DNA of 26,429 nucleotides from a virus: positions 1 to 26,429 of the IMG/VR virus record IMGVR_UViG_3300001450_000228; one strand, given 5' to 3'. A program made the position numbers and the translations under genes. How positions within the stretch are numbered: the stretch's first letter is position 1; each line of letters opens with the position of its first letter. Below the pieces are notes generated by a model that saw nothing but the letters and a program-made list of their open reading frames with translations, was not told the DNA's origin and ran no database searches. This document shows positions 30-20,208 of this stretch, in pieces.

Positions 30-66
30 TTAGTCGCTCATTAGTCGAACCGGCAGGTTTAAATAC
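30..66 (+). promoter_or_regulatory. Class I promoter: tandem TTAGTCG plus TATA box
   Basis: Two copies of TTAGTCG (30-36 and 41-47, 11 bp apart) are followed by ACCGGCAG and a TATA box TTTAAATA (58-65). The TATA core begins 18 bp after the start of the second copy. The same arrangement recurs at 2559, 5031 and 13872. The start site would fall near 85-90, giving a roughly 45-base leader with a strong AGGAGG ribosome site at 121-126. Bases 1-27 can be read as the end of an upstream gene (stop TAA 25-27), but too little is present to call it. The role as operator is inferred from position and repetition. Confidence 0.8.
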
Positions 67-74
67 TTGAAGGG

Positions 75-110
75 GTATGGTTAAATGAAGCGGGAGAGAA
101 CCGCCGACAA
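75..110 (+). other. Conserved 5' leader element
   Basis: GTATGGTTA (75-83), AAGCGGGAGAGA (88-99) and CGACAA (105-110) recur in the same order downstream of the class I promoters at 2588 and 5060. It lies in the predicted transcribed leader, upstream of the Shine-Dalgarno sequence. It may be an initial transcribed sequence, an RNA element or a second protein-binding site. The sequence does not decide between these. Confidence 0.5.
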
Positions 111-134
111 ACAAAATACAAGGAGGAAAATAAA

Positions 135-278
135 ATGAAAAATATACCGAAAAAAGCAAAACAGACAACAGACATACCGAAGAAAGACCTTAACGCTTGG
201 GGCCACCCCGATGCAAAGAAATGGGCTTTCGTCGGCTACACAAAGAAAGACGAAACCGCATGGTGGGTGAAGAAATGA
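135..278 (+). CDS. Small basic hypothetical protein (47 aa)
   Basis: First gene after the class I promoter. The ATG at 135 is preceded by a strong AGGAGG at 121-126, and the frame runs to TGA at 278, overlapping the next ATG by four bases. The product is lysine-rich at its N terminus (two IPKK copies, at residues 4-7 and 14-17) and ends in a Trp/Lys-rich segment with GYTKKDETAWWVKK, which suggests a compact, possibly nucleic-acid-binding fold. I do not recognise a family. The strong ribosome site and the ATGA overlap are the main arguments that it is real. Confidence 0.6.
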   Translation: MKNIPKKAKQTTDIPKKDLNAWGHPDAKKWAFVGYTKKDETAWWVKK

Positions 279-676
279 AAGTCATAATCCCTGAAGCGGA
301 AACTGAAGGCACATTTGAGGGGTGGGTTCGCGTTGAAACCAAAAACGCCATATCCATTTACCGTAAAATGTTGCTTAGACAAAGAAGAGAGAACGAAGCC
401 CGAACACCACAATACCCGTATTCATTGGGTAGTCATATGAAAGCATCTATGCTTCTTCACTTGACACCGGAACAGCGTTCATCTCAATGGATTAGACTGC
501 CTTTAGGTAAAGCCGAAAAAATTATGGAATTGCATTGCGAGGTAATAAAATACAGAAATTGTGTGATGAAACCTTTCTTTTACATGCAAACTCACCGGCA
601 CAGCATTTCAGTATGGCCTCAACATGAGCGCGATGAAACTCTCAACAGGGACAATAATTGGGGTGAAGAAGAATGA
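275..676 (+). CDS. Hypothetical protein (133 aa)
   Basis: Unknown function. I chose the ATG at 275 because it overlaps the preceding stop as ATGA. An in-frame start at 197 would bury most of the upstream gene. The product begins MKVIIPEAETEGTFEGW, has a basic middle (LLRQRRENEAR) and ends in an acidic tail (WGEEE). No membrane segment or known motif is visible. It is the second of eight short overlapping genes that must share the promoter at 30-66. Confidence 0.7.
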   Translation: MKVIIPEAETEGTFEGWVRVETKNAISIYRKMLLRQRRENEARTPQYPYSLGSHMKASMLLHLTPEQRSSQWIRLPLGKAEKIMELHCEVIKYRNCVMKPFFYMQTHRHSISVWPQHERDETLNRDNNWGEEE

Positions 677-1185
677 AAAACCCAAGCCCGATACAAAAAA
701 TGCTAATCTACGACCAACCACGCGTGTATGTGGCCTGTTTAGGTTGCTATAACGAAGGCCGACTGAATGGTAAATGGATGGATGCCGACGAGTATGAAGA
801 CTATACTCATAAGTGCAAACGCCCATATCATGAAGAATACGCCATACATGACTATGACACGATGCCGAACTTAGACGAATATCCCGACCCTGAAAAAGTC
901 GTTGATGTCGCCCACGCCGTCATGGAGCATGGTTATGATATTGTCAATGACTTCATAAATTGGGGTATGGATGATGTCTCAAAAATATCCGACGCATTCT
1001 TAACCGAATTAAGCGGATGGAATTACAACAAACAATTAGGGGAATACTTAGTGCATGAATTAGACATGATGAATATACCCGATGAAATGTCCTATTACTT
1101 CGATTATGAGGCGTATGGTCGCGATATGTCGGTGAACTGCGTCTATGTCTCGGACAAGGGCAATGTATTTTGGAGGGATTTTTGA
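673..1185 (+). CDS. Acidic Tyr/Asp-rich hypothetical protein (170 aa)
   Basis: Unknown function. The ATG at 673 overlaps the preceding TGA by four bases. The product is strongly acidic and rich in Tyr and Asp, with a short CLGC near residues 23-26 and a further Cys near residue 48. A single CxxC pair is too little to claim a zinc site. An acidic, tyrosine-rich composition is often seen in small viral proteins that bind host proteins, but nothing here shows a partner. The next gene starts inside its stop codon (TGATG). Confidence 0.7.
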   Translation: MKNPSPIQKMLIYDQPRVYVACLGCYNEGRLNGKWMDADEYEDYTHKCKRPYHEEYAIHDYDTMPNLDEYPDPEKVVDVAHAVMEHGYDIVNDFINWGMDDVSKISDAFLTELSGWNYNKQLGEYLVHELDMMNIPDEMSYYFDYEAYGRDMSVNCVYVSDKGNVFWRDF

Positions 1186-1478
1186 TGACTCGAATGGTTG
1201 GAATATGCGGCTACTGCTCATTTGTTCAAGGTTATTGCGTGGAAAATATGCTATTGATAGCAGACCATCCGAGCCTTTCACACGACTTTTGTAAATCGTG
1301 TAAATCACACCATCCCGATTATGAACCGACGGATGAATGTGAAGACTTCAAACCAAGAAACCCCGATGTATACGAAGGGCAAACATGGTTTTGTCAAGGC
1401 TGTGGGTCGGGAACAGAATTTTTAGGTGATGCTGATTTACTCGATGAAAACGGAAGAGAGGTGAAGAACAATGACTGA
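1185..1478 (+). CDS. Small zinc-finger-like protein (97 aa)
   Basis: The ATG at 1185 shares one base with the preceding TGA. It is preferred over the in-frame ATG at 1170, which overlaps more of the upstream gene and precedes the likely ribosome site GGAGGG (1172-1177). The protein carries several cysteine pairs: CGYC near residues 6-9, CKSC in the middle and CQGCGSG near the C terminus, with histidines between them. This is a pattern of one or two structural zinc sites. The family is not recognised. It may be a nucleic-acid- or protein-binding adaptor. Confidence 0.7.
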   Translation: MTRMVGICGYCSFVQGYCVENMLLIADHPSLSHDFCKSCKSHHPDYEPTDECEDFKPRNPDVYEGQTWFCQGCGSGTEFLGDADLLDENGREVKNND

Positions 1479-1713
1479 AAAAACCTTAGAGTATATTCAA
1501 ACCGTCAATTCGCTACGCGATGCCGACCGGCCTTATTGCCCTGAAACGATATGTGCAAACATTTGTTTCGATGTTTCCGGTTCGGCCTCAAGGTTGAAAT
1601 TGATAACTTATATTGACCCTAAAAGTAAAATTGGGGTTGTCGATTGGCAATGCTATCAATGCGGTTATCAAGCACCGCTTCACCGGCATAATTGGCAAAG
1701 AGGTGATGAGTAA
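1471..1713 (+). CDS. Small zinc-finger-like protein (80 aa)
   Basis: The ATG at 1471 overlaps the end of the preceding gene by eight bases. Cysteines occur as YCPETICANIC (residues about 22-32) and CYQCGYQAPLHRH (residues about 62-74). This is consistent with one zinc ion held by two separated knuckles, as in zinc ribbons. The C terminus is short and charged. No enzymatic motif is visible. Co-transcription with neighbouring small zinc proteins suggests a set of related regulatory or accessory factors. Confidence 0.65.
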   Translation: MTEKTLEYIQTVNSLRDADRPYCPETICANICFDVSGSASRLKLITYIDPKSKIGVVDWQCYQCGYQAPLHRHNWQRGDE

Positions 1714-1934
1714 TGTTCGGACAAGAAAATATTCATGTTATCACCGTGTTTAATACTTTTGGGGATATAGTATTCTCATCGGATGACCGCGAATCATTCA
1801 TTGACTTTTGCGAGGATGTGCCGAAAGGCCACGATATAAAACGCGTCAAATACGAAACGACAAGAAATCCATATTCGGGCAAAGCGATTACAATAAGCCA
1901 CTACACCATGCGACCAAAAGGAGGGCCACTATGA
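1713..1934 (+). CDS. Hypothetical protein (73 aa)
   Basis: The ATG at 1713 shares one base with the preceding TAA (TAATG). The product has an alternating hydrophobic start (IHVITVFNTFGDIVFSS), suggesting a small beta-rich fold, followed by an acidic stretch and a basic segment. No cysteine pairs, membrane helix or known motif are visible. Function unknown. Its reality rests on the tight coupling to both neighbours. Confidence 0.6.
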   Translation: MFGQENIHVITVFNTFGDIVFSSDDRESFIDFCEDVPKGHDIKRVKYETTRNPYSGKAITISHYTMRPKGGPL

Positions 1935-2212
1935 CGGATTTAACTTTAACGATAATAGAAAACCTAATCATTGACAAAATCGGTGCGGAAGCCGCATCCG
2001 AGGGATTATTTTTGACCGACCGAAAGGTTTGGGTTTCGGATGTGAGCATAATATCTATGACTTGTCCGTATTGCTCAAAAACATTTGTCGGGCCTGATTA
2101 CAATGTGTATCATTTACTCGCTACGCATGAATACGGCCACCGGCACGAAGAGGCTATGCTTGCCGCCGCCGCACTCGACGATGATGATGAAGAAGGAGGC
2201 TTGAGCGCATGA
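1931..2212 (+). CDS. C2H2-type zinc finger protein with acidic tail (93 aa)
   Basis: The ATG at 1931 overlaps the preceding stop as ATGA. I prefer it to an in-frame start at 1808, which would cover most of the previous gene. Near residues 45-70 it has CPYC followed by HLLATHEYGHRHE, a C-x2-C...H-x4-H arrangement typical of a classical zinc finger. The C terminus is alanine-rich and then acidic (LDDDDEEGG). C2H2 fingers of this kind in archaeal viruses usually bind DNA or mediate protein contacts. Which applies here cannot be told. Confidence 0.7.
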   Translation: MTDLTLTIIENLIIDKIGAEAASEGLFLTDRKVWVSDVSIISMTCPYCSKTFVGPDYNVYHLLATHEYGHRHEEAMLAAAALDDDDEEGGLSA

Positions 2213-2541
2213 AAAAAAGGGCTACACAAAAATGGTGTGAGGTTTTCCTTAAGAAATTGAAATACCTTCACGAACCGGTTACTTTCAACCAATTGAAAAA
2301 CCTTGTTTGGGATGACCCTGAAGCGCGCCCTCTAAGCAACGGTGCAATATCGCGTCGTGCCAAAATGACAACCATGCCCGTTACCGGTAGCGTGTGGGGG
2401 GCTTTCTGTAAAAGGTATGACAACATTAGTATTACCCGTAAAGTATGTGAAAATGACAGGTATTTTGACACTCAAACATCTTTAACTCAAAGACCTTCAA
2501 AAATAAACCATTACCAATGGATTATTGAGGTGATAGAATAA
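2209..2541 (+). CDS. Basic hypothetical protein, possible winged helix (110 aa)
   Basis: The ATG at 2209 overlaps the preceding TGA by four bases, and a GGAGG lies at 2193-2197. The product is basic at its N terminus (MKKRATQKW). The pattern of helix, PVTFNQLKNLV, and then LSNGAISRRAKMT resembles the recognition part of a winged helix, but the match is weak. It is the last gene of the first operon. The next class I promoter begins 17 bases after its stop. Confidence 0.55.
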   Translation: MKKRATQKWCEVFLKKLKYLHEPVTFNQLKNLVWDDPEARPLSNGAISRRAKMTTMPVTGSVWGAFCKRYDNISITRKVCENDRYFDTQTSLTQRPSKINHYQWIIEVIE

Positions 2542-2558
2542 TATTCGATGACTACTTA

Positions 2559-2595
2559 TTAGTCGCCTATTAGTCGAACCGGCAGACTTATATAG
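2559..2595 (+). promoter_or_regulatory. Class I promoter: tandem TTAGTCG plus TATA box
   Basis: TTAGTCG at 2559-2565 and 2570-2576 (11 bp apart), then AACCGGCAG and TATA box TTATATAG at 2588-2595. The second copy to TATA spacing is 18 bp, identical to the other three copies. The leader is about 100 bases long and includes a GTAGTAGTAGTA run (2595-2606) and an A-rich stretch before the GGAGG (2704-2708) of the DUF932 gene. The first 120 bases of this gap also hold the conserved leader element. Confidence 0.85.
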
Positions 2596-2603
2596 TAGTA
2601 GTA

Positions 2604-2636
2604 GTATGGTTATATAGAGGCGGAGAGAGACGACAA
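2604..2636 (+). other. Conserved 5' leader element (copy 2)
   Basis: GTATGGTTA (2604-2612), AGGCGGAGAGA (2618-2628) and CGACAA (2631-2636) match the elements at 75-110 and 5077-5104 in order and spacing. It lies downstream of the TATA box, so it would be in the RNA. Function unknown. Confidence 0.5.
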
Positions 2637-2716
2637 CCCCACGAACAATGGCAACACATGACTCAAACCAAATCAAAAAAAAACAATGAAAAAATAAAAA
2701 AATGGAGGACAAAAAT

Positions 2717-3679
2717 ATGTTAAGCGCACACATGATAACAGGACAGAAAGCGGTTGGTAACAACACGCGAGAGGTATTGCAGAATGCCGGAATGGATTTT
2801 GAGGTGGCAAGGGAACCCTTGTTCACTTCGACGGGCCGTGAAATACGGTCGAAGTTTCAAAGAATATATCGAAAGGACAGCGACCACACGCTCGGCGTAG
2901 TGGGTCGCACATACAAACCGATGCAAAATGAAGAGTTATTGGGTATTGCCCAAAACCTCATTGACACTGATGATATTGCTTGGGATAGAACCGGCATGAT
3001 TGACGGCGGCTCAAAGTTATGGGCTTCGTTCACTTTGCCCGACTCTTTCCGCATCGACGGATGGGATGACATCGACCAACACATCTACCTTGTCAATTCG
3101 CATGACGGTTCGGGTGGCGTGAAGTGCATACCCGTCAATGTTCGGCTTGGTTGTTCAAACCAATTCGCCTTTGCCATGTCTCAAATCAAAGCCGCCGGTA
3201 TCAACCCGCGTGATTTGACAATTCGCCACTCATCCAAAATGGGCGACCGTGTGGGTGATTTCAGGAAAGCGATAAAATTGGTTGATACTCTCAACCAAAA
3301 CTTTGCCGATACTGCCGCCGAATTGATTTCTGTTGAAATGACGGATGTTGAACGCGTGGACTACTACATTGATGCTCTCGGACTCAAACATGATGTGAAG
3401 AACATATCCAAGGACAATACCACCGGTTTGACAACGCGTGGGAACAACACCTTGAACCACCTCATCGAACTCGAAAAGTCTTCGACAAACAACACCGCCG
3501 CTATGCGAGACAGTGCATGGCAAGCGTTCAATGTTGTAACTGAATACATCGACCACGCATGGGTTCACAACTCCGCCGGAACAATCAACGCCAAGCGCGC
3601 CGAATCCGCTATCATCGGAACCGGTTCTCGACTCAAGGCTAAAGCATGGGATTCAGTGGTGGCCCGTATCGTAGCATGA
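2717..3679 (+). CDS. DUF932 phage/plasmid-like protein (320 aa)
   Basis: This matches the DUF932 (TIGR03299 phage/plasmid-like) family along its length. Landmarks are the N-terminal LGVVGRTYKPMQNEELL (about residues 60-76), the central IYLVNSHDGSGGV and CIPVNVRLGCSNQFAFAM, then ILTIRHS-like IRHSS, the late TEYIDHAW, and a C terminus ending in GSRLKAKAWDSVV. The family is common on phages and plasmids, often near replication or recombination genes. Its biochemical role is not established. The ATG at 2717 follows GGAGG at 2704-2708. An upstream in-frame ATG at 2702 would sit before that ribosome site. It is the first gene of the operon that contains PCNA. Confidence 0.88.
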   Translation: MLSAHMITGQKAVGNNTREVLQNAGMDFEVAREPLFTSTGREIRSKFQRIYRKDSDHTLGVVGRTYKPMQNEELLGIAQNLIDTDDIAWDRTGMIDGGSKLWASFTLPDSFRIDGWDDIDQHIYLVNSHDGSGGVKCIPVNVRLGCSNQFAFAMSQIKAAGINPRDLTIRHSSKMGDRVGDFRKAIKLVDTLNQNFADTAAELISVEMTDVERVDYYIDALGLKHDVKNISKDNTTGLTTRGNNTLNHLIELEKSSTNNTAAMRDSAWQAFNVVTEYIDHAWVHNSAGTINAKRAESAIIGTGSRLKAKAWDSVVARIVA

Positions 3680-3764
3680 GGCTATACACACACGCAGTCA
3701 AAAGTGAATGACGGCCTCCCTCTAAGGATGCCCGACGCAAATTGACAAAGTGGAGGTTATTATT

Positions 3765-4508
3765 ATGACAAAAGAAAATATAGTATTCAAAGCGAAAGGT
3801 TCCGAGATTCTTCGGTTCTGTGCAATGGCCGATGTCGTTGTTGAAGACATACTCATTGAGATGGGTAAAGACGGCATGACTTTTCGCGCAGTAGACCCGT
3901 CGCATGTCGCCATGATTGAGGTTGATTTAGGCCGTATCACCGGCCATCACAAGACAACCAAATTCGGCATACAGGTTCGCGACCTGAAGGAATCCGCCGA
4001 AAAAAGTGAAGACATCTCTATCCAATGGTCGAAAGACGGGAAAGACATTATCATCAAGGCCGACAAGTGGGAAACCAAATTGAAGCCATTGCGTGAAGAC
4101 TCTCTCTATCCGCCGAGTCTACCGGATGTAAACCCGTTACACACTAAGACCGTTCACACATCAACAATTGATTTCAAATTGGGATGCGACCGCCTAAGTA
4201 AAATGGGCGACCTATGCACTTTCACCCTTGACAGAACTTTAACGGGAAATGTAACCTCTAATGTCCGTAGCCGACGGTTTGACTTTTCTAATTCCCTGAA
4301 CAAGAGAAGTCATCCGACAAATCTCAAGAAGAAAACATCGGCTCAATACAGCCTCACATACCTATCGAACCTCGCTAAAAAATTGAAGGTCGGAAAGGAT
4401 GCGACAATGCTCTCTTGGACTGTAAAAGAAGACAATTACCCACTTACTATTAGAGGTAAAGAAGGCCGAATGACTTGGACTTATTTCTTAGCCCCACGAA
4501 TCGAATGA
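3765..4508 (+). CDS. pcn: PCNA-like DNA sliding clamp (247 aa)
   Basis: Archaeal/eukaryotic PCNA homologue: the ring-shaped clamp that tethers DNA polymerase and other factors to DNA. Length (247 aa) is normal for the family. Diagnostic features are FRAVDPSHVAMIEVDL (about residues 39-54), the first-domain core motif, and the C terminus YFLAPRIE, the classic end of PCNA, preceded by YPLTIRGKEGRMTW. The interdomain region is recognisable but divergent. The start at 3765 follows GTGGAGG. The 85-base gap before it shows no clear TATA box, so it is probably co-transcribed with the DUF932 gene. It should be loaded by the clamp loader at 16398 and serve the polymerase at 24558. Confidence 0.93.
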   Translation: MTKENIVFKAKGSEILRFCAMADVVVEDILIEMGKDGMTFRAVDPSHVAMIEVDLGRITGHHKTTKFGIQVRDLKESAEKSEDISIQWSKDGKDIIIKADKWETKLKPLREDSLYPPSLPDVNPLHTKTVHTSTIDFKLGCDRLSKMGDLCTFTLDRTLTGNVTSNVRSRRFDFSNSLNKRSHPTNLKKKTSAQYSLTYLSNLAKKLKVGKDATMLSWTVKEDNYPLTIRGKEGRMTWTYFLAPRIE

Positions 4509-4518
4509 GGTGTTACAT

Positions 4519-5034
4519 ATGAAGTTAAAGAAACAACCTATTGAGTATGTGTTTTACTATACCCTCAAAACTAAAGACGGGTTTCAACATCCGCTTTGGT
4601 ATGCAGGTTTCGGTTCACCTTGGAGATTGAGCGAGAACATCATAGACGCTCTCAAATCCAAACCCGATACAGTCAATGAAGTAATAACCCTGAAGGCTCT
4701 CGAAAAACATACGAAGACTGAATGGTTTGTTATTCCGGTAAAAGAAACATACGGAGACAGAACAAATTCATGCGTCGTTTGTGGTTTCGCTTGGACTAAT
4801 GCCGAAAGAGACTATGTTTTACTTGACCGATACAGCGAAAGTATGCCGAGAGAAGGTCTACACCTCGCGTCGGTGTTGAACAAACACTTCGACGGTTACA
4901 TTGATTATGAGGCGACAAAAAAACAAATCCTGAGAGCATCACATTGCGAGACACACGGACAAGTCTGTGGGTCATGTCGCAAACCAAAGGGTAGGTGCAA
5001 AAATTGCCGACCGATTGTTCGGAGGAAAAATTAG
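4519..5034 (+). CDS. Zinc-finger-containing hypothetical protein (171 aa)
   Basis: The ATG at 4519 follows GAGGTG. An in-frame GTG at 4510 is possible but less likely. Two cysteine clusters are visible: CVVCGFAW near residues 77-84, and C-terminal CETHGQVCGSCRKPKGRCKNC (reads as C-x6-C-x2-C-x6-C-x2-C), followed by a basic tail. The second cluster resembles a zinc knuckle that binds nucleic acid. The N-terminal 70 residues look like a mixed alpha/beta domain. No HNH catalytic pattern is convincing. It ends the PCNA operon. Confidence 0.7.
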   Translation: MKLKKQPIEYVFYYTLKTKDGFQHPLWYAGFGSPWRLSENIIDALKSKPDTVNEVITLKALEKHTKTEWFVIPVKETYGDRTNSCVVCGFAWTNAERDYVLLDRYSESMPREGLHLASVLNKHFDGYIDYEATKKQILRASHCETHGQVCGSCRKPKGRCKNCRPIVRRKN

Positions 5035-5066
5035 ACGCCAATTAGTCGCACCGGCACGCTTATATA
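5031..5066 (+). promoter_or_regulatory. Class I promoter: tandem TTAGWCG plus TATA box
   Basis: TTAGACG at 5031-5037 (one mismatch) overlaps the stop of the preceding gene. TTAGTCG follows at 5042-5048, then CACCGGCACG and TATA box TTATATA at 5060-5066. Period (11 bp) and distance to TATA (18 bp) are identical to the other three. It drives the gene at 5120, which has AGGAGG at 5107-5112. Confidence 0.83.
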
Positions 5067-5076
5067 CTTGAAAGAA

Positions 5077-5104
5077 GTAGTTAATTTGTAAGCGGAAGCG
5101 ACAA
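5077..5104 (+). other. Conserved 5' leader element (copy 3, shortened)
   Basis: GTAGTTA (5077-5083) and AAGCGGAAGCGACAA (5090-5104) correspond to the leader elements at 75-110 and 2604-2636, with a few bases missing between GCGG and CGACAA. Confidence 0.42.
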
Positions 5105-5119
5105 CAGGAGGAATTAAAC

Positions 5120-5671
5120 ATGAACATATTTTATCTCGATGAAGACCCACACCTCGCCGCCACTATGGTATGCGATTCTCACGCAAGCAAAATGTGTGTA
5201 GAATCCGTTCAAATGCTTGTGAGCGCATTACTCATCAACGGTGCGAACCCTGATGACATGCCCTTAACGAAGTCTACCGAACAACCGCACAAGGGAGGTT
5301 ACAAACACCACCCGTCTACGCGCTGGACTGCTACATCCCTGCCTAATTGGATATGGTTATTCAATCATGCTCACGGTCTATGCGACCAATTTCACGCTCG
5401 ATTCGGCGGCGAACACTTCGCCCGACGACAACTCGACCATCTAATGAAAATTGCTTGGTCGGAGTATCTACCTATTCTCAAGCGAACACCTATCGCTCGC
5501 GCATTCAATCAATCCAAAGGACTCAACCTTGACCTTCTCGATTATGTAAAATACACTGATGTAGAAGCATACAGACAATTTTACATTAGAGACAAAAGTA
5601 ATATCGCTAAGTGGGAAAAAGGTGTAGCCGCACCCGATTGGTGGGTTGAAGCAATGGAGGTGACAGCATGA
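5120..5671 (+). CDS. Widespread phage protein family (MNIFYLD...CDxHxxKM), 183 aa
   Basis: The N terminus MNIFYLDEDPHLAA, followed by CDSHASKMCVESVQML (residues about 18-33), matches a protein family I know from many tailed phages, where the usual form is CDKHVVKM with a conserved Glu-Gln pair after it. The later AYRQFYIRDKSNIAKW and the terminal PDWW also belong to that family. The Cys, His, Lys and Glu in the first motif are the best candidates for an active or metal site. The function is not established to my knowledge. I do not accept glycosylase labels without a structure search. It is led by a class I promoter with a strong ribosome site. Confidence 0.7.
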   Translation: MNIFYLDEDPHLAATMVCDSHASKMCVESVQMLVSALLINGANPDDMPLTKSTEQPHKGGYKHHPSTRWTATSLPNWIWLFNHAHGLCDQFHARFGGEHFARRQLDHLMKIAWSEYLPILKRTPIARAFNQSKGLNLDLLDYVKYTDVEAYRQFYIRDKSNIAKWEKGVAAPDWWVEAMEVTA

Positions 5672-5988
5672 CCCTAAGAAAAAAGGTGGCTTTCAAATCC
5701 GATGATTTTTCTCCGAAAGGGTCAAAGGGATTTATCAACCACCCTTCACCCGTCTTTGATAAGATGTGGTCTATGAAAAACATAAGATTACTCAAGACGG
5801 TTAAGCGAGAGCGTTTGTTCAACGGCAAAAAATACAAAGCCGACGATGTGTATTCAAGTGTAGAAACTGCTAATTATTATGCGAGAGCATACCGCTACGA
5901 AGGTCGCAAGGCTCGCGTGATACCAACGAAATGTCAAGGTCAAGTGAAAACTACCCACTTTATCGTTTATGTGGAGGTGTGGGGATGA
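5668..5988 (+). CDS. Basic hypothetical protein (106 aa)
   Basis: The ATG at 5668 overlaps the preceding TGA by four bases, and the stop in turn overlaps the methyltransferase start. The product is basic (RKKVAFKSDDF at the start, KTVKRERLFNGKKYKADD in the middle) and ends in an alternating hydrophobic strand (HFIVYVEVWG). This could be a small alpha/beta nucleic-acid-binding protein. No known motif. Its close coupling to the methyltransferase is the only clue to its role. Confidence 0.6.
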   Translation: MTLRKKVAFKSDDFSPKGSKGFINHPSPVFDKMWSMKNIRLLKTVKRERLFNGKKYKADDVYSSVETANYYARAYRYEGRKARVIPTKCQGQVKTTHFIVYVEVWG

Positions 5989-6944
5989 CTACTTGGATGA
6001 TGAATAACGCTAAGTGGCGAGCCGAAAGAAACAACGGTATCACCGCTCTCTCTCTATTCGATGGCATGTCCGGTGCGAGGGTCGCCCTAAAGAAAGCAGG
6101 TATTCCCGTAAAAGTATATTACTCTTCGGAGATTGACAAGTATGCTTTACAGATAGCCAATAAAAATTATCCTGAAGATGAGCGTTACCGTTTAGGAGAC
6201 ATCACCAAAACACATTTCCAAGAATATGCGAACTCCGAATGGCCTATTGACCTTCTCATTGGAGGGTCGCCATGTCAAGACCTATCATCATCGAATGTGT
6301 GGACTGAACAGCGTGGGCTTGAAGGTAAGAAGTCAAGTCTCTTTTGGGAGTATGTTCGGGTTCTTAAGGAAGTTAAACCGAAATATTTTTTGTTAGAAAA
6401 TGTTGGCTCTTGTCGTAAAGAGGATAGAGAAATCATATCGCGTGAACTCGGAGTCGAACCCATCCGTCTCAACAGTAAGTTATTTTTACCCCAAAACAGA
6501 AACCGTTTGTATTGGACTAATATACCATTTAGTGTTCCGGTAAAAGCAAAGCACGACTTAACCATGCAAGACTTGTTGGAGGTAGATGTTGAAGGCAAAT
6601 ACCACCTCTCGGAAAAAATGCGTGATTGTGTCATGCGACCGGCAAAGAAAGGTTGGGTGTCCGGCAAAATGGAAACAGACTTACCTATCGCTCGACCACT
6701 TACGGCGACGATGGCAAAGATGCACAGGGCCGATACCGATAACTATATTACTACCAACAATACACCTCAAAACAAGACGAGCCTCCGTAGACTGACCCCG
6801 ATTGAGTGCGAAAGACTACAAGGTTTTGAAGACAATTATACTCAAGGTGTGAGCGACACGCAACGATACAGGATGCTCGGAAACGGGTTCACCACTGATG
6901 CTATCGCACACATCCTGAAAGGAATTAGGAGGAAAATAATATGA
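5985..6944 (+). CDS. DNA (cytosine-5) methyltransferase (319 aa)
   Basis: Transfers a methyl group from AdoMet to C5 of cytosine in DNA. All core motifs of the family are present in order: motif I ALSLFDGMSGARVAL (about 21-35), motif IV GGSPCQDLSS with catalytic Cys97, motif VI LLENVGS, motif VIII QNRNRLYW, a variable target-recognition region, and motifs IX/X ending in YRMLGNGFTTDAIAHIL. The motif I style (LFDGMSG) resembles phage and Dnmt3-like enzymes. The start at 5985 overlaps the previous stop as ATGA. An in-frame start at 5931 would overlap far more. No nuclease partner is adjacent, so protection or epigenetic modification of the viral genome is more likely than restriction-modification. 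Confidence 0.93.
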   Translation: MTTWMMNNAKWRAERNNGITALSLFDGMSGARVALKKAGIPVKVYYSSEIDKYALQIANKNYPEDERYRLGDITKTHFQEYANSEWPIDLLIGGSPCQDLSSSNVWTEQRGLEGKKSSLFWEYVRVLKEVKPKYFLLENVGSCRKEDREIISRELGVEPIRLNSKLFLPQNRNRLYWTNIPFSVPVKAKHDLTMQDLLEVDVEGKYHLSEKMRDCVMRPAKKGWVSGKMETDLPIARPLTATMAKMHRADTDNYITTNNTPQNKTSLRRLTPIECERLQGFEDNYTQGVSDTQRYRMLGNGFTTDAIAHILKGIRRKII

Positions 6945-7102: not shown

Positions 7103-7103
7103 A

Positions 7104-7415
7104 ATGCCACGAAGCACAGGCCCAAAACGCCGTAGAAACATTGCTCTCAAACGCCGCATGGTGTTAATCCTAAAACAGAACGAGGGTCGTCTTGTTTCGG
7201 CAAGTGAAATGATTGGACTTCTCATTGACAGTGGGTTGAGCCAACGATACCTGAAGAACGCAGTCGGTATTGGTTTAATCCTAAAAGCAACTGCCGGAGT
7301 ATCAAGAAGTCAAACACACTTCAAAGACTGCGGGGGGCAAACATATTCAAGTTACGGGTATACTCTTGAGGATGAGACGGCCTTTGAAAATTGGCTCGAA
7401 TCCAAAGGTTGTTGA
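7104..7415 (+). CDS. Small basic protein, probable winged helix (103 aa)
   Basis: The ATG at 7104 follows a GGGGTG site. The N terminus is very basic (PKRRRNIALKRRM). After it come a helix, then LVSASEMIGLL and LSQRYLKNAVGIGLI, and a hairpin-like GYTL, consistent with a winged-helix DNA-binding domain. The terminal segment is acidic and ends in Cys. It may be a regulator of viral transcription. The exact family is not recognised. It is two bases after the zinc-ribbon gene and three before the next gene. Confidence 0.6.
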   Translation: MPRSTGPKRRRNIALKRRMVLILKQNEGRLVSASEMIGLLIDSGLSQRYLKNAVGIGLILKATAGVSRSQTHFKDCGGQTYSSYGYTLEDETAFENWLESKGC

Positions 7416-7418
7416 AGA

Positions 7419-8231
7419 ATGCGTATTGGTTCGTGGCTTTTTACGAGAACAGAAGATTTGTTTGTTGAAAACTATTTCCCTTATAGTAAAAAGGGTAGAA
7501 ACCGAATCTTCCAACCATACATCTATTTGTCCGGCCCGTCGGGTCGGATTAAATTACACGGTAAGCGCGCTCTATGGTCGCTTCTTGACGCTATGTTCCC
7601 TAATGACCCTCTACCCCGAAAGATGCTCAATGAAGACCTTAAAGACCCCTTTATCGGCAAGGATTTGCTCAACGGTCTGTTGTCCGACCCCGACTCTTGG
7701 CCTCATCTCCGTTTGCATGTGCGAACCGGAGATTGGGTAGACGAAAGAGGTAAACCAAACGAAGGAACATTTGTCATGTCGGCAAGCGCATCATCATCCG
7801 ACTTCGACGCAACTCCATCACTTCTCATGCTTGAGAAGGAATACCCTGAATCTTACATCATGCCCTTTACCCTTAATACTAAAACACGACTAATTACTAT
7901 TCCCGCATTAGTAATACCATGCGTGAATGATTTACAAATGAGAGTAGTTTTGACTGATACCGTAAATGGAAAACACCTTATCTTTTCCGTAATAGAAAAA
8001 AATGGTTCCGCTTTCCGACCCCAACGCTTAGATTATTTACCGCTTTCCGACACCATTTCTATGCTGTCGAATATCGGGGATAGAATGAAGAAGTTAGATT
8101 TTATTTCAACCATGAATTACATTTGGCCTAAAAATAACCCACTTGATGCCGGAATGCGCTATTATGAGCGTGATGATTTAGAATATCGAAGGTTTGTTTC
8201 ATCTCCTTCGTTTAATTCTTTCAATTCTTGA
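7419..8231 (+). CDS. Hypothetical protein (270 aa)
   Basis: Unknown function. It is a full-length soluble protein without signal peptide, membrane helix or cysteine pairs. Recognisable pieces are IYLSGPSGRIKLHGKRALWSL near residues 38-58, and RLHVRTGDWVDERGKP and TFVMSASASSSDFD in the middle. The second half alternates hydrophobic residues as in beta-sheets. It ends with a Ser/Phe/Asn repeat (SPSFNSFNS). It is the last gene before the large non-coding gap, so it closes the operon that starts at 5060. Confidence 0.7.
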   Translation: MRIGSWLFTRTEDLFVENYFPYSKKGRNRIFQPYIYLSGPSGRIKLHGKRALWSLLDAMFPNDPLPRKMLNEDLKDPFIGKDLLNGLLSDPDSWPHLRLHVRTGDWVDERGKPNEGTFVMSASASSSDFDATPSLLMLEKEYPESYIMPFTLNTKTRLITIPALVIPCVNDLQMRVVLTDTVNGKHLIFSVIEKNGSAFRPQRLDYLPLSDTISMLSNIGDRMKKLDFISTMNYIWPKNNPLDAGMRYYERDDLEYRRFVSSPSFNSFNS

Positions 8232-8267
8232 AATGTTTCTAAAAAGAATAAATTGCTCGCAGTAGTG

Positions 8268-8287
8268 TATTTTTATTTATTCTTTTA
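8268..8287 (+). terminator. T-rich tract, candidate archaeal terminator
   Basis: After the stop at 8231 the + strand carries a T-rich run (TATTTTTATTTATTCTTTTA). Archaeal polymerase terminates on T-rich non-template strands without a hairpin, so this is a plausible end for the operon starting at 5060. It runs into the left arm of the inverted repeat at 8283. Confidence 0.45.
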
Positions 8288-8374
8288 TTGTTTCATAGAG
8301 GGTGAACGGCTCAACCCTGTATTCTATTACTATACTAATAACTACTTTTCTTAAACATCTATGAAACAATAAAA
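8283..8374. ncRNA. Candidate structured RNA or cruciform with 17-bp inverted repeat
   Basis: Perfect 17-bp inverted repeat: TTTTATTGTTTCATAGA (8283-8299) and TCTATGAAACAATAAAA (8358-8374), separated by 58 bases. Inside lie a smaller hairpin, AGGGT(8299-8303)/ACCCT(8314-8318) with one unpaired base and GA/TCA extension, and a near-palindrome TATTACTATACTAATA. Right after it, AACGGTA (8380-8386) pairs with TACCGTT (8400-8406). No open frame of note crosses the gap on either strand. The nested arrangement would fit a non-coding RNA, a replication-initiation cruciform or a protein-binding site. Nothing in the sequence alone decides this. Confidence 0.5.
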
Positions 8375-8379
8375 TAATT

Positions 8380-8406
8380 AACGGTATAGAGTCGCAGTCT
8401 ACCGTT
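8380..8406 (+). other. Hairpin after the inverted repeat
   Basis: AACGGTA and TACCGTT form a 7-bp perfect stem around a 13-base loop that can pair two more bases. It is followed by TTTATTATTT. It could be a terminator for a short RNA made from the 8283-8374 element, or part of the same structure. Confidence 0.4.
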
Positions 8407-8447
8407 TTATTATTTCTGGGACATCGTAAATTAGAGAAAGAATGGTG

Positions 8448-8454
8448 TTATATA
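8448..8454 (+). promoter_or_regulatory. Class II promoter (TATA box, leaderless type)
   Basis: TTATATA begins 29 bases before the ATG at 8477. This is the distance expected when transcription starts at or within a few bases of the start codon. No TTAGTCG motif and no clear Shine-Dalgarno sequence are present. Confidence 0.65.
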
Positions 8455-8476
8455 GTATGTTTTACTATCTCTTAGT

Positions 8477-8893
8477 ATGGCAAAAGGCAACCAACGAACC
8501 AAAGCGAGACTCACTGAAAGAATACGCGCTATACTTTTCGATGGGCCTATGCGTAGCGACGACATCCACTCAATCTTACATCGTGAATACGGACATGAGA
8601 AATGGAGTGGTCTTGGTTCGGTCGCCACCATGTCTCAAACCATGAGGCAATCAGGAATGTTCCGTCGCAATCATTGGGTAGACACACAAGGTAATGCACA
8701 CAACGGTAAAATGAGCGTAAGCGAATTGAGAAAGGTCGGTGTGGTGGTGAATGTTCATTCTGTTTGGGAAAACAAATCAATGGATGAAATCATCGAACCT
8801 TTCCTCACTAAGACCCACACACGCCGTCTCATAGGGAGAATGCCCGCAAGTGTCCGAGAGGCATACAACTTAGCAAAGGGTGATGAACAATGA
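8477..8893 (+). CDS. Winged-helix-like DNA-binding protein (138 aa)
   Basis: Probably read from a leaderless mRNA, given TATA at 8448. Another in-frame ATG does not occur before 8477 with a better context. The basic N terminus MAKGNQRTKARLTERIR leads into AILFDGPMRSDDIHSIL and MSQTMRQSGMFRRNHWV, the layout of a winged helix with the recognition helix followed by a wing. The C-terminal half is helical and basic. It is the first gene of an operon with the AAA+ helicase candidate, so it may be a regulator or a replication-initiation factor. The second role is a guess. Confidence 0.65.
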   Translation: MAKGNQRTKARLTERIRAILFDGPMRSDDIHSILHREYGHEKWSGLGSVATMSQTMRQSGMFRRNHWVDTQGNAHNGKMSVSELRKVGVVVNVHSVWENKSMDEIIEPFLTKTHTRRLIGRMPASVREAYNLAKGDEQ

Positions 8894-9639
8894 GTTACGG
8901 TATGGAATCATTCAATTCTCTCGACATCATTTGGAGAGAAAGGCAATCTACTTTTAACCCAAAAATATGTTATATTTATGTTCAAGGTGAGTTCGGATTC
9001 TTACCATACATTTGTGCGACCGGTTTAGCAGGTAATCTAAAACCGCATGTTGAAATCCTATCGGCAAATATGTGTGTAGAACCTTTCAACCGCTTGCCGA
9101 ACCCCGTTCCCCCTTCTTGGAATATAACTCAAATCGAAAGGGGTATTGCTCTTTTGAGTATCAATCACCATTTCCCTATGACAATGATGCCCGACACCAA
9201 CCCCGATGTTTGGTCGAAGTGTTACGATACCATGCGTGATGTCCTGAAATTCCTTGAGGCTCAAGGTTGTAATCAAATTGTATTTGTTACATCTATGACA
9301 ATGACCGAAGCCGATGAAGTCTCCGATTTGTATGTCTATGACATCAAAAACAATATCCAACCGGAGTCTCCGCTAATGCTTGCTCTACCTGCTTGGGCCA
9401 TGCCTTACCTTTGGGATGGCATGGGTAAAGCCGCATCCGTTATCGCTATCGCCCAAGACGAAGGACAATTCATTGACATGGAGGCTTACGCATTATTACG
9501 GGAATACTTAATTGCAGTCGGACTTAGTTATGACGACACTCACGCTGAACGCACGATGAAAATGGTAAAAATGGTTCAGGGTTCTTTAGAATCAATCGGC
9601 TCATCCTTTGAAGACTTTGGCGGAGATGATTTGAGATGA
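8890..9639 (+). CDS. PAC2-family-like protein (249 aa)
   Basis: The layout resembles the PAC2 family (proteasome assembly chaperone 2 and archaeal relatives): a hydrophobic start with GEFGFLPYICATGLAGNL, then a long helix MRDVLKFLEAQGCNQIVFVTSM, in which the strand after the helix is typical, and a late block LPAWAMPYLWDG...ASVIAIAQDEG and FIDMEAYALLREYLIAVGL, matching the PAC2 region where a Gly-rich loop is followed by a helix. Archaeal PAC2 proteins interact with the 20S proteasome, so a viral copy could act on host proteolysis. The match is by pattern only. The start overlaps the previous stop as ATGA. Confidence 0.45.
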   Translation: MSYGMESFNSLDIIWRERQSTFNPKICYIYVQGEFGFLPYICATGLAGNLKPHVEILSANMCVEPFNRLPNPVPPSWNITQIERGIALLSINHHFPMTMMPDTNPDVWSKCYDTMRDVLKFLEAQGCNQIVFVTSMTMTEADEVSDLYVYDIKNNIQPESPLMLALPAWAMPYLWDGMGKAASVIAIAQDEGQFIDMEAYALLREYLIAVGLSYDDTHAERTMKMVKMVQGSLESIGSSFEDFGGDDLR

Positions 9640-10958
9640 ATAACATAATTGACCGAGTAGTAAAATTTGCTCAAAACAATTACTATGTCGATGTCGAAGA
9701 CAAAATACCTATTTTCATTTGTTCAATCGGCGCACATATTTTTAACGCTATCAACAAGTGTTCACGGTGCGACTTCGACCCTGCCACTAATGCCCACTTT
9801 AACATACCCAACTGCCCGTTGCGACACAACTTTGCACCCATCTACACCCCGATGTCTCAACTCGCTGATACACGCCTTCACATCCTCATGCGGGGAGAGA
9901 AAGGTTCCGGTAAAAGTATTCTCATAAATCTATTCTTGGCCGAAGGGACAGGTCTTCTGTATTCCTCAAGTGCCATGAACGACGGTATAGGGTTCCGCAC
10001 CATGCTTGGCCCCAACTCCATTACAGAAGCCGGTATGTTCGGGTCTGTTGATGAAGAAGGCGACATCATGGGCCGACCGCTTGCGAGAGAGATGTGTGGC
10101 GGATTCTTGGGTTTTGAAGAATCGTCATCCTTGACCGATGCAAACAAAAAAGACCACAGCGTAGATATGAAAAACCAATTGCTCACATCCCTCGACAACG
10201 GGAGAGTGAACAAAGCCATGCGTAGTGGTTGGGTTACTTACAATACTCGTTATACTATGTGGGGTGGCACTCAACCTGCTCGCCTCGAAATGGAATCAGG
10301 TCTTGACCGAAGGCTGTTCATCATCGACATAGAAATGTCGCCGGAAAAAGAAGCCGCATACAAAATCGCACAACACAAGCAAAGCAACATGACAAGAGAA
10401 CAACGGGCCGAACTCGCCGGAGAGTCTATCGCTATCCGCAATTGGATTAACACCCGTATGCTCGACGCTATGTTTGACCCGCCTTCTGGAGTTATCTTTG
10501 CCGAATCGTTGGGTGATTGGCTCAACCGACCGGACATCCGTTCTTACGAAGCCGACATCTTCCGCCGTCTCGCCATCGGGTATTCGATGATGAACAAAGA
10601 ATGGGTTGGTAACAAACCTCTTACAATCGAACTCGACAAAAAATTACTCGGTCTTCTTGAGTCGGCTCTCATCATGCGTCGGTCTGTTATGGATGTTGAG
10701 GTTCGACTTATCAAAGACACTTATTGGATGCAAGACATTACCAAGTCTACCCTGCTAAAAGAAATTAGCCGAATAATAACTAATGGTGATTATACCTCCG
10801 CAAAGCGGTGGATAGGCGAAAACCTTGAAGGGCAAATGTGGTATTCGGAATATGTGCCGAAGAGTAAGGGTCGGGGCCGTCGTGGTGTGATGTGTCGCAT
10901 CGGGCCATTGACTGACCCTGAACAGGTCAAACAGAAGTGGGGTGCAAACAATGACTGA
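9636..10958 (+). CDS. AAA+ ATPase, candidate MCM-like replicative helicase (440 aa)
   Basis: A zinc site (C42-x2-C45-x14-C60-x3-H64) comes before an AAA+ core. Walker A is GEKGSGKS (87-94), Walker B FLGFEE (about 157-162), sensor 1 lies in TMWGGTQP, and the arginine finger is probably in SGLDRRLFII. The order resembles MCM helicases, which also have a zinc domain before an AAA+ motor and an Arg finger in a similar L-x-R-F/D context. The protein is much shorter than a cellular MCM. The C terminus is basic (SKGRGRRG). With polymerase, clamp and loader in the window it is the best candidate for the replicative helicase. A terminase or other AAA+ role is not excluded. Confidence 0.6.
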   Translation: MNNIIDRVVKFAQNNYYVDVEDKIPIFICSIGAHIFNAINKCSRCDFDPATNAHFNIPNCPLRHNFAPIYTPMSQLADTRLHILMRGEKGSGKSILINLFLAEGTGLLYSSSAMNDGIGFRTMLGPNSITEAGMFGSVDEEGDIMGRPLAREMCGGFLGFEESSSLTDANKKDHSVDMKNQLLTSLDNGRVNKAMRSGWVTYNTRYTMWGGTQPARLEMESGLDRRLFIIDIEMSPEKEAAYKIAQHKQSNMTREQRAELAGESIAIRNWINTRMLDAMFDPPSGVIFAESLGDWLNRPDIRSYEADIFRRLAIGYSMMNKEWVGNKPLTIELDKKLLGLLESALIMRRSVMDVEVRLIKDTYWMQDITKSTLLKEISRIITNGDYTSAKRWIGENLEGQMWYSEYVPKSKGRGRRGVMCRIGPLTDPEQVKQKWGANND

Positions 10959-11592
10959 TAATCACACTTGGTTACAGAACAAGTCTTGGAATGTCAAAGA
11001 TGAATACTATACCCCTAAAATCTTAGTGGATGCTATCATGCCGCACCTCCCCCACCCCTTCACCACCTCCACCGTCCCCGCCACACGCAAAATCGTTTGG
11101 TGTCCTTTCGATACCGAGAATAGCGAGTTCGTTATTGGGTTGAGGGAGAAAGGTTACGATGTTATCCACAGCCACATTTGGGAGGGGAAAGACTTCTTTC
11201 ATTATGAGCCGGAACAACACTACGACATGATTATATCGAACCCTCCTTTTACCCTAAAACTAAAAGTGTTTGAACGATTGTTCAATTTGGGAAAGCCGTT
11301 CCTCATGTTGATGGGGTTGCCGATTCTAAATTATCAGGTTGTCGGAGAATACTTTCACAAGAAACAGAATGAAGGTAAGAAGTTACAATTGTTAATCGTA
11401 GACAAGAAGGTTTCTTTTAACGGTGATACTTCTTCTTTCAACAACTCTTACTTTGGTTGGAACATACTTCAAGAAGACATTATCTTCGCTCACTTGGAAC
11501 ATAACAATAGTGGTGAAAATTATGTCGGTAGTAGAATGGGCGACAGTGAATCGTTGCCGGAGATAGAAAAGAAAAAGGTGGAGTGGTTTTAA
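10951..11592 (+). CDS. Adenine-specific DNA methyltransferase-like protein, NPPF type (213 aa)
   Basis: The catalytic motif ISNPPF (residues 95-100, ending a DMIISNPPF strand) is that of N6-adenine methyltransferases. The start YYTPKILVDAI is common in phage methyltransferases of this group. IVWCPFDTENSEFV (48-61), with GYDVIHSHIWEGKDFF, is the AdoMet-side region. There is no strict FxGxG motif, as usual for this phage subgroup. The ATG at 10951 overlaps the previous gene by eight bases. An in-frame GTG at 10942 is possible. A Pro/Thr-rich insertion encoded by a C-rich tract (11041-11092) interrupts the early part. Target sequence unknown. Confidence 0.72.
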   Translation: MTDNHTWLQNKSWNVKDEYYTPKILVDAIMPHLPHPFTTSTVPATRKIVWCPFDTENSEFVIGLREKGYDVIHSHIWEGKDFFHYEPEQHYDMIISNPPFTLKLKVFERLFNLGKPFLMLMGLPILNYQVVGEYFHKKQNEGKKLQLLIVDKKVSFNGDTSSFNNSYFGWNILQEDIIFAHLEHNNSGENYVGSRMGDSESLPEIEKKKVEWF

Positions 11593-12212
11593 TGAGAACA
11601 AAGAATGAGATTGAACAACGGCTCGCATCCGAGCATAACGCATTGACGATTGAAACCCTTCGTTGGGTTCTCAACAATCCCGACTGCCCCATGTGTGGAA
11701 TCGGAACAAGAAAGGAATTAGAAGTCGGTGTTCATTCAGGTGATGTAACCACATTATATTTAGAGGAAAAGTATTCTTGGCCGGTTGGCACAGTGATGAC
11801 TCACATGGATGAGCATGTAGACTACGACCCCGAAGAAGCGAGACACATGGAAAGAATGCGAGGGGAGAGCATAGACACGCTCGACAGCGCACAGGATATT
11901 GTCTCCCGTCTTTTGGGGTGGCTCGATGAATTGGAGGCTATCAAAGACTCAACCGGAGGTATAACTTCGGAGTGGGTTGCCGACGCTTCTAAATTGGTTG
12001 CTCAAGCAAACACCTCTCTTCGACTTGTCGGACAACTCAAAAAGGAAATTGGCGTGGACTCGCAATTACTTTTAGCGCAAAAACAAATGGATGGGGTTAT
12101 GGGTATTCTGGTGAACAGTCTACGCGATTCACCGCATCTTTTGGATGACATAGAATTTAGAATCGCTTCTCTCAAACCCCCGACAAATGTTATTGAATAT
12201 ACGGATGTGTGA
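11592..12212 (+). CDS. Hypothetical helical protein with CxxC (206 aa)
   Basis: The ATG at 11592 shares one base with the preceding TAA (TAATG). A short N-terminal helical region with CPMCGIGTRKELE (near residues 32-44) is followed by YSWPVGTVMTHMDEHVDYDPEEA, the look of a small DNA-binding helix-turn-helix. Then comes a long charged helical C-terminal half, probably coiled coil. Small terminase subunits have this kind of layout, so that is a possibility, but no large terminase is in the window to support it. Otherwise unrecognised. Confidence 0.6.
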   Translation: MRTKNEIEQRLASEHNALTIETLRWVLNNPDCPMCGIGTRKELEVGVHSGDVTTLYLEEKYSWPVGTVMTHMDEHVDYDPEEARHMERMRGESIDTLDSAQDIVSRLLGWLDELEAIKDSTGGITSEWVADASKLVAQANTSLRLVGQLKKEIGVDSQLLLAQKQMDGVMGILVNSLRDSPHLLDDIEFRIASLKPPTNVIEYTDV

Positions 12213-12214
12213 TT

Positions 12215-12478
12215 ATGGCAAAAACATGGAGAAATAAACCACGCAACTCGCTCTACGCTCGGCGCATTCAACGGGTAGAGTTTCCTCGATTGATTGAAGC
12301 CATGAAAGATGACATGCTCGACTGCCAAATCCAAGACACCGGCTTGGTGTGGTCTATCAAAGGTTATCGTATCGCATCCTCCGAAGTGGCTCGCAATTGG
12401 GGTATCACTTATGCACAAATGAAAAGGTTTCAGGATTACATCTATGAGAAAGACCCTTGGTATGCGGAGTATCGGTGA
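12215..12478 (+). CDS. Small basic hypothetical protein (87 aa)
   Basis: The start may be the ATG at 12215 or the in-frame GTG at 12209, which overlaps the previous TGA. The product is basic at the start (MAKTWRNKPRNSLYARRIQR) and ends with SEVARNWGITYAQMKRFQDY, which looks like a helix-turn-helix recognition helix region. It may bind DNA. It sits between the terminase-like/helical gene and the 221-residue gene, with six bases to the next ATG. Confidence 0.55.
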   Translation: MAKTWRNKPRNSLYARRIQRVEFPRLIEAMKDDMLDCQIQDTGLVWSIKGYRIASSEVARNWGITYAQMKRFQDYIYEKDPWYAEYR

Positions 12479-12483
12479 GTATT

Positions 12484-13149
12484 ATGGGAATAGTAATACT
12501 TACTGCCGATGATTCGGCTTACCGTTTGGGTAGAGTGATTGAATCGCGAGGTTTGAAACATCCTCCGACCGCACCCGATACTACATACCTTGTTCACCAA
12601 AGTAAAATAACCGAAAAAGAAATCACTCATTGGATTGGGCTTGTCCCGTATCGTTTGGTATTTGTCATCAAGAAATTACCGAGACTTAGTAAGCAAACTA
12701 AGGAGGCTATCATCATTGACAAGAGCCTCGCTGAATCTAAAAACCCATACAAGAAGGGTATTGATGCCCTGTTTAGGTGGGGCGACCGTCGAAGAGTTCA
12801 CAATTTGTTCGTGGGAACGCCTGTCCCTTTAGCATTGGCGTTTGTAAGACAAAACAACAAAGACATCAGGTTGTGGCGTATGCTTGCCGATGTCTCATTC
12901 ACGCTACCGACTGAATATGCCGAAGCGGTTTTGGTCTACGGAATCAAACCGTCGAACAAATCAGTGGCTTGGCCGAAGAAGTCAAAGAAGGATGATGAAG
13001 CACCTCCACAATTTAGGCAGTCCGATAAGTATTGGCGTAAAATTATTGACATCGAACCAAAGGTGAGAAATCAAATCCGAACACAGACACCGGACAAAGC
13101 ACCAACCACCATGAAAAAACGGAGGGAGAAAACCCATGAATGGTTTTGA
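12484..13149 (+). CDS. Hypothetical protein, possible clamp-loader-associated subunit (221 aa)
   Basis: Not recognised with certainty. The first 100 residues alternate hydrophobic strands and helices (MGIVILTADD; LVFVIKKLPRL). The block ALFRWGDRRRVHNLF, then PVPLALAFVRQN and LWRMLADVSFTL, has the helical rhythm of the collar domain of clamp-loader subunits (RFC large subunit or bacterial delta). The tail is very basic. The virus has a loader ATPase at 16398 but no visible large subunit, which makes the idea worth testing. The start could also be the in-frame GTG at 12475. Confidence 0.5.
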   Translation: MGIVILTADDSAYRLGRVIESRGLKHPPTAPDTTYLVHQSKITEKEITHWIGLVPYRLVFVIKKLPRLSKQTKEAIIIDKSLAESKNPYKKGIDALFRWGDRRRVHNLFVGTPVPLALAFVRQNNKDIRLWRMLADVSFTLPTEYAEAVLVYGIKPSNKSVAWPKKSKKDDEAPPQFRQSDKYWRKIIDIEPKVRNQIRTQTPDKAPTTMKKRREKTHEWF

Positions 13150-13414
13150 ATTTTCTTTTGGTGTTTTTACCTTAATTCTAATTGGTTATGTTGGTAACAA
13201 AATCGAAGAGGCCAAAAAGAAAAGGATGCTTTTTCGGGCGGCTTACCCCACAATCCCTTATCACTTACAAGGCCAACCGGCGCGAGGCGGTGCGACACAC
13301 AATTTTACTGTAAATCAAGACGAAGCCCAAGAAGAAAAGGCTTACGAGTTTCAGGAACATTTCTTTGATTGGGTAGACAACTCCGACTTCTTGACTTTCA
13401 ACGATGACTTTTAA
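13136..13414 (+). CDS. Small single-pass membrane protein (92 aa)
   Basis: The ATG at 13136 overlaps the previous gene by 14 bases and follows GGAGGGAG. Residues about 5-20 (EFSFGVFTLILIGYVG) form one hydrophobic segment with no signal peptidase site. It is followed by a basic stretch KIEEAKKKR and a soluble, acidic C-terminal part. This would give an N-terminal membrane anchor with a cytoplasmic tail by the positive-inside rule. Function unknown. Confidence 0.65.
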   Translation: MNGFEFSFGVFTLILIGYVGNKIEEAKKKRMLFRAAYPTIPYHLQGQPARGGATHNFTVNQDEAQEEKAYEFQEHFFDWVDNSDFLTFNDDF

Positions 13415-13427
13415 CTTTAACGGCAAC

Positions 13428-13436
13428 TTTATTAAG
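13428..13436 (+). promoter_or_regulatory. Class II promoter (TATA-like TTTATTAAG)
   Basis: TTTATTAAG starts 31 bases before the ATG at 13459. No TTAGTCG motif or Shine-Dalgarno is seen in the gap 13415-13458. It fits a leaderless mRNA. Confidence 0.55.
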
Positions 13437-13458
13437 CGACCAAAGAAACAATTATACA

Positions 13459-13866
13459 ATGAGTGCTACGAACCGCCGAGTCCGACGCGCCATACTTGAG
13501 ATACTCTGGGATGAAGGCCCGCTAACAAAAGAAGAGGTGGCCGTTGAATTAGCAAAGCGAAAGGGCGTTGGTCGTGTGCCAAGCCCACACAGTCTTTCCG
13601 CTTTGTTGTGTAAATCTAATTCAGTAATTAGTGTCGGAAAGAAGACGGTGCAAAATATAATTGGGGTAAAAGCAAAACACTTACTGTATGATATTGACCG
13701 TGAAATAGTTCTCAAAGTCTCGGAGATAGAATACATCCGAGAGCCGTCTACTATGACCCCTAAAGAAAGGGAGAAAGCCGCAAAGTGCAAGTCCTGTTCC
13801 CGAACAAGAATCTTTCCTGAAAATGAGAATGAGTGTATTTCTTGTTTACGCACCCCGAACCCATAG
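13459..13866 (+). CDS. Winged-helix protein with C-terminal zinc ribbon (135 aa)
   Basis: Probably leaderless. Residues 1-60 have the winged-helix pattern: RRVRRAILEILWDEGPLTKEEV, VAVELAKRK and then SPHSLSALLCKS as the recognition helix, with a wing at VISVGKKTV. The C terminus has CKSC...CISC (about residues 112-127), a zinc ribbon. A transcription regulator fits best, since such fusions are common in archaea. Two bases after its stop begins the operator-type promoter at 13872, whose extra TAGTCG half-site overlaps the stop codon. It is a natural candidate for the protein that binds TTAGTCG, but this is a guess. Confidence 0.68.
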   Translation: MSATNRRVRRAILEILWDEGPLTKEEVAVELAKRKGVGRVPSPHSLSALLCKSNSVISVGKKTVQNIIGVKAKHLLYDIDREIVLKVSEIEYIREPSTMTPKEREKAAKCKSCSRTRIFPENENECISCLRTPNP

Positions 13867-13871
13867 TCGTA

Positions 13872-13907
13872 TTAGTCGTCTATTAGTCGTATAGGCAGGT
13901 TTATATA
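13872..13907 (+). promoter_or_regulatory. Class I promoter: tandem TTAGTCG plus TATA box
   Basis: TTAGTCG at 13872-13878 and 13883-13889 (11 bp apart), then ATAGGCAGGT and TATA box TTATATA at 13901-13907, with the same 18-bp distance. A third half-site TAGTCG lies at 13864-13869. The leader differs from the other three copies and lacks the clear conserved leader element. The start codon at 13943 is close, about 36 bases after TATA. Confidence 0.8.
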
Positions 13908-20195: not shown

Positions 20196-20201
20196 CTACC
20201 C

Positions 20202-20208
20202 TTATATA
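20202..20208 (+). promoter_or_regulatory. Class II promoter (TATA box, ACTACCC type)
   Basis: ACTACCCTTATATA (20195-20208) with the TATA core 29 bases before ATG 20231. The same 14-base string is found before the polymerase gene (24523-24536). AGGAGAG (20218-20224) lies near the start, so the mRNA may be leaderless or have a minimal leader. Confidence 0.65.

Follow-up and report, generated by a model that had tools for sequence, protein, structure and literature searches.

A short DNA word shared by replication-gene promoters and a repeat-packed region in uncultured marine tailed viruses that probably infect archaea

A stretch of viral DNA of 26,429 nucleotides (IMG/VR record IMGVR_UViG_3300001450_000228; here called the window) carries four promoters with the same paired heptamer at a fixed distance from the TATA box. 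This raises the question whether these sites belong to one virus-specific regulatory system, and how far such a system extends. The initial annotation described two TTAGTCG copies with an 11-bp period at positions 30, 2559, 5031 and 13872, a CCGGCA-like box, a TATA box 18 bp after the start of the second copy, and an extra half-site in one promoter. This observation was confirmed, with small corrections to the sequences. It was proposed that the sites mark a dedicated transcription factor or altered transcription initiation for a viral regulon comprising the first operon, the DUF932/PCNA operon, the methyltransferase operon and the small-gene operon. This interpretation was supported in part: a dedicated virus-specific factor is well supported, while altered initiation is not, as the TATA boxes look ordinary and no TFB homologue was found in 15 of these virus records.

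Promoter anatomy and promoter classes

All four sites lie on the + strand, with copies at 30/41, 2559/2570, 5031/5042 and 13872/13883. The first-operon promoter has the tandem TTAGTCG-CTCA-TTAGTCG at 30-47, followed at 48-65 by the CGG box (AACCGGCAGG) and the TATA box TTTAAATA (58-65). The DUF932/PCNA operon promoter has its tandem at 2559-2576 and, at 2577-2594, the box AACCGGCAGA and the TATA box CTTATATA (2587-2594). In the methyltransferase operon promoter (5031-5048) the distal copy is TTAGACG rather than TTAGTCG, and the box CACCGGCACG and the TATA box CTTATATA (5059-5066) follow at 5049-5066. The operator of the small-gene operon (13863-13889) consists of the extra half-site ATAGTCG at 13863, which overlaps the stop codon of the upstream gene, and the tandem at 13872/13883. 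It is followed at 13890-13907 by the box TATAGGCAGG and the TATA box TTTATATA (13900-13907). The ten bases between proximal copy and TATA box thus contain CGG or AGG, and TTATATA/TTAAATA starts exactly 18 bp after the start of the second copy in all four. The TATA boxes look like ordinary archaeal-type boxes. A scan with the exact motif including CCGGCA was too narrow and hit only the same genome. A small hairpin (GCGG-loop-CCGC) lies at the predicted 5' end of the first-operon leader (84-134), and a similar GCGGGAGCAACCCGC is found in the related record G003. Other leaders of this promoter class share GCGG but fold less clearly, and a conserved leader hairpin holds at some promoters only.

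Single heptamers with one mismatch are not unusual in the window (78 found, 70 expected). The tandem with its spacing, however, occurs four times in the window and in none of 400 dinucleotide shuffles, which rejects chance. TTAGTCG, with its overlapping shift ATTAGTC, is the only heptamer with three exact 11-bp tandems in the window. The window is 100% identical to part of the IMG/VR record G001 (68,595 bases), whose ends overlap through window positions 1185-1310, so that the genome closes; the two records are therefore not independent evidence. G001 holds 74 copies of TTAGTCG against 7.6 expected, the most over-represented heptamer of the genome. Seven promoters have the word at a gap of 9-10 bp from TATA, three more than in the window (63443, 65458, 67327, 1392, 3864 and 12705 on the + strand, 62405 on the - strand; the first-operon site is at 67315-67332). 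In six of these the tandem is exact, the exception being 3864 (window 5042).

Other promoters of the same genome have a TATA box but lack the word. This second class, ACTACC/ATAACT-CTTATATA, often followed by C-runs, precedes the RadA-like gene (TATA CTTATATA at 20201-20208), the HTH gene at 24060 (TATA at 24029-24036), the PolB gene (TATA at 24529-24536) and following genes (also G001 27497). The word is thus a mark of one promoter class (class I). The window also encodes three DNA methyltransferase-like genes of different families within 26 kb (5931-6944, 10942-11592 and 22692-23846).

A hub of word copies and its co-variation with the promoters

The remaining copies in G001, about 60, lie outside the window and hence outside the sequence seen by the initial annotation. 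They fill 60.4-63.4 kb, between the large terminase gene (57.2 kb) and a gene for a 538-aa protein (63.8 kb), 3.8 kb upstream of the window. In this region, here called the hub, many copies occur as TTAGTCGCGACTAA palindromes with a fixed 25-bp linker. Two further leftward promoters near the hub probably use the word too. Hub copies (G001 60.4-63.6 kb) are often followed by A-tracts, which read as T-runs on the leftward strand and could double as terminators. In the TAGTCG-type hubs examined (G001 and the relatives G002, G006, G004 and G040) the array is built from adjacent inverted copies (centre distance 6) and divergent pairs at 31 bp. A scan of 2.9 million viral contigs with this grammar returned 28 stretches with about 94 matches, many stretches having 3-7. 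A permuted word gave 12 single hits in unrelated contigs, and a wrong spacing gave 19 stretches with 33 matches, mostly in the same hub contigs.

Loci of relatives were found through DUF932 and the 13459 protein. TAGTCG-TATA is retained upstream of the DUF932 orthologue in relatives of 67-85% identity, and 21 of 23 viral loci keep TAGTCG upstream of TATA after the orthologue of the 13459 protein, while the surrounding bases change. The gap between word and TATA is constant within a genome but lineage-specific: 10 bp with a tandem, or 11, 13 or 21 bp, the last equal to the position of the distal copy in the window. Other lineages have a single copy.

The two bases before TAGTCG in a hub predict those at the promoters of the same virus. 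These dialects are AT in G001 and L197, AT/TT in G002, TT in G041, L184 and L188, GT in L191, CT in L194, AA in G040 and L186, and A in G004 (G and L numbers denote virus records and loci). Across the 60 promoter sites in 13 viruses, assigning hubs to the wrong virus never fitted as well (0 of 20,000 permutations, for all promoters and for those outside the hub), although this test ignores relatedness among the viruses, which form about seven dialect groups. In the more distant outgroup G008/G009 (DUF932 46-48%, terminase 57-58% identity) the hub lies at the same genomic place but is made of TGCCTACAAAAC (CTACAAA: 54 copies in G008 against 4.3 expected). That word, or its TGACTACAAAAC/CGCCTACAAAAC variants, sits 22-23 bp before GTATATATA at four promoters in each record. 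This is what a single co-evolving factor predicts. The outgroup hub (L031 8400-13000 and L032 6500-10300) has its own phasing, with convergent pairs at 11 bp and divergent pairs at 33 bp.

Candidate factors and the predicted host

The initial annotation named HTH proteins at 13459, 8477, 24060 and 7104 as possible binding proteins. Of these, 13459 and 24060 are conserved across the group, whereas 8477 diverges fast (27-36% identity) and no HTH evidence was found for 7104. The 13459-13866 gene (+ strand) encodes a 135-aa protein with a predicted winged helix plus CxxC...CxxC, in which the recognition helix PSPHSLSALLCKS is nearly invariant in all dialects. The 24060-24368 gene (+ strand) encodes an HTH protein with an RSRGRR tail. 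A third candidate is the 435-aa protein encoded at the hub edge, whose gene has its own word-bearing promoter in some relatives. Binding by any of these is hypothetical. Sequence and fold searches gave only generic winged-helix matches for 13459 (weak structure model, mean pLDDT 71). The model of the 435-aa protein is poor (mean pLDDT 47) and Foldseek gave nothing reliable for it. The 538-aa protein has no PDB relative and a 440-aa protein no credible one, and NCBIfam gave nothing for the HTH candidates tested. A profile search (PF00382) for a viral TFB was negative in 15 virus records, several of them fragments. The distant record G052 has a homologue of the 13459 protein with a changed recognition helix (SPNSISALMSKN; L170 7975-8375, - strand; G052 47780-48166) and no TAGTCG enrichment, though its hub may lie off the contig.

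The host is predicted rather than known. Infection of Poseidoniales (MGII) is inferred from gene content resembling that of Magrovirales, namely PolB, a clamp loader, a RadA-like protein and a group II chaperonin, and from the chaperonin type, as the thermosome-type chaperonin matches clade 1 of PMC5332604. No close named record was found in the phage collection searched. Neither the tandem nor the word with TATA was found in 30 Poseidoniales genomes (about 45 Mb), which were identified through a 16S pattern. Together with the second promoter class, this rejects a universal host promoter layout.

Interpretation and comparison with known systems

The best explanation, held with moderate confidence, is that TTAGTCG is the binding word of one virus-specific factor. 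In this view the factor binds one or two copies on one helical face just upstream of the TFB/TBP site and most likely activates the early/replication operons by recruiting or holding TBP/TFB. The same factor would load the hub of about 25-65 phased copies between the terminase gene and the early operons, where it probably initiates replication and/or sets factor dosage. Factor, hub and promoters would change together in each lineage. The analysis itself establishes the promoter anatomy, its conservation, the restriction of the word to one promoter class, the hub grammar and the co-variation of hub and promoters. That a virus-encoded protein binds the word, that it activates, that the operons are expressed early and that the hub is a replication origin are inferences. 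The hub has a phased repeat array in non-coding DNA, as iteron-type origins have, and lies at an AT-skew minimum in three genomes, but gene orientation also changes nearby, so that the evidence for an origin is weak. It is possible, though less likely than not, that a single virus-encoded protein couples origin firing and early transcription in a widespread group of probable archaeal viruses, its word diversifying in concert at hub and promoters, so that each lineage runs a private code that separates it from co-infecting relatives.

The main rival is that the same factor represses: early genes would fire first from host TBP/TFB, and accumulating factor, also titrated by the hub, would switch them off. 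Several described archaeal viral regulators are repressors, SSV1 F55 binds tandem repeats at early promoters (PMC5569661), and hub-edge genes have word copies very near TATA. However, the sites lie upstream of BRE/TATA on one helical face with strict spacing, rather than overlapping BRE or the start site as F55 sites do, and in this they resemble archaeal upstream activating sequences such as that of GvpE more than repressor operators. Activation is therefore favoured and repression considered less likely, although the sign of regulation is inferred from sequence alone. It is doubtful that a host transcription factor reads the word and that the viruses tune their sites to the local host. Dialects could track the hosts of the lineages, but the absence from the 30 Poseidoniales genomes, the dozens of copies in a viral hub and the complete change of word in the outgroup are easier to explain by a viral factor. 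It is equally doubtful that the hub is a packaging (pac) site or an assembly-prone repeat array, unrelated in function to the promoters, with words shared through concerted evolution of repeats. The hub does lie beside the large terminase gene, but promoters and hub share only an 8-9 bp word inside unrelated sequence, too short for ordinary gene conversion, and the word is at a fixed distance from TATA. Least likely, the promoters are mere copies of one promoter cassette, like the HF2 intergenic repeats, with no separate regulator: they share further similarity up to the GCGG leader, but outside word, box and TATA the sequences differ, orthologous promoters keep the word over large divergence while spacing shifts, and the word recurs in the non-promoter hub.

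Almost nothing is known about transcription control or replication origins in the abundant uncultured viruses of marine archaea. Here one short word predicts the regulon, a likely control centre and a short list of candidate factors. The naturally matched word-hub pairs offer ready-made specificity tests in vitro, the concerted change of a word at dozens of sites is a clear case of co-evolution of an inferred regulator with its sites, and word and hub grammar can be used to find and join fragments of such viruses in metagenomes. No paper on promoters of magroviruses or Poseidoniales viruses was found in the literature searched. Shared promoter sequences in archaeal viruses are known; the same word in a phased multi-copy hub, and its concerted change in both places between relatives, were not found in that literature.

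The intergenic-repeat promoters of the tailed halovirus HF2 (Haloferacalesvirus) likewise are repeated, virus-specific sequences of two classes, conserved in position among relatives, with extra conserved blocks around TATA (PMC8707807). The HF2 repeats are 58/29 bp long with key motifs confined to them, no hub of dozens of copies is described, and the conserved upstream alpha block could be mutated without loss in reporter assays, showing that upstream motifs can be dispensable. In SIRV2-type viruses one consensus sequence around TATA/BRE marks early genes and differs between viruses, implying different regulators (PMC11065993), as the word is shared by several promoters here and is virus-specific. 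The SIRV2 regulator, Aca8, is thought to be a repressor and acts on anti-defence genes rather than replication operons, and no phased multi-copy hub appears to be described. SSV1 F55 is a viral factor that reads tandem short repeats at several early promoters, but it is a repressor of the lysogenic state and its sites overlap BRE or the start site (PMC5569661), whereas the proximal copies in the window end 10 bp upstream of TATA. In iteron-type origins with an initiator that also regulates promoters, such as those of plasmid Rep and papillomavirus E2, many phased copies of a promoter-binding word lie in one non-coding region; for the hub such a layout is seen, while initiator and origin activity are inferred. 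The upstream activating sequence of GvpE, a host gas-vesicle regulator, is unrelated in sequence and has no hub, but it is an element of about 20 nt just upstream of BRE/TATA that is needed for activation (PMC8241225), and the 18-bp tandem of the window has a similar size and place.
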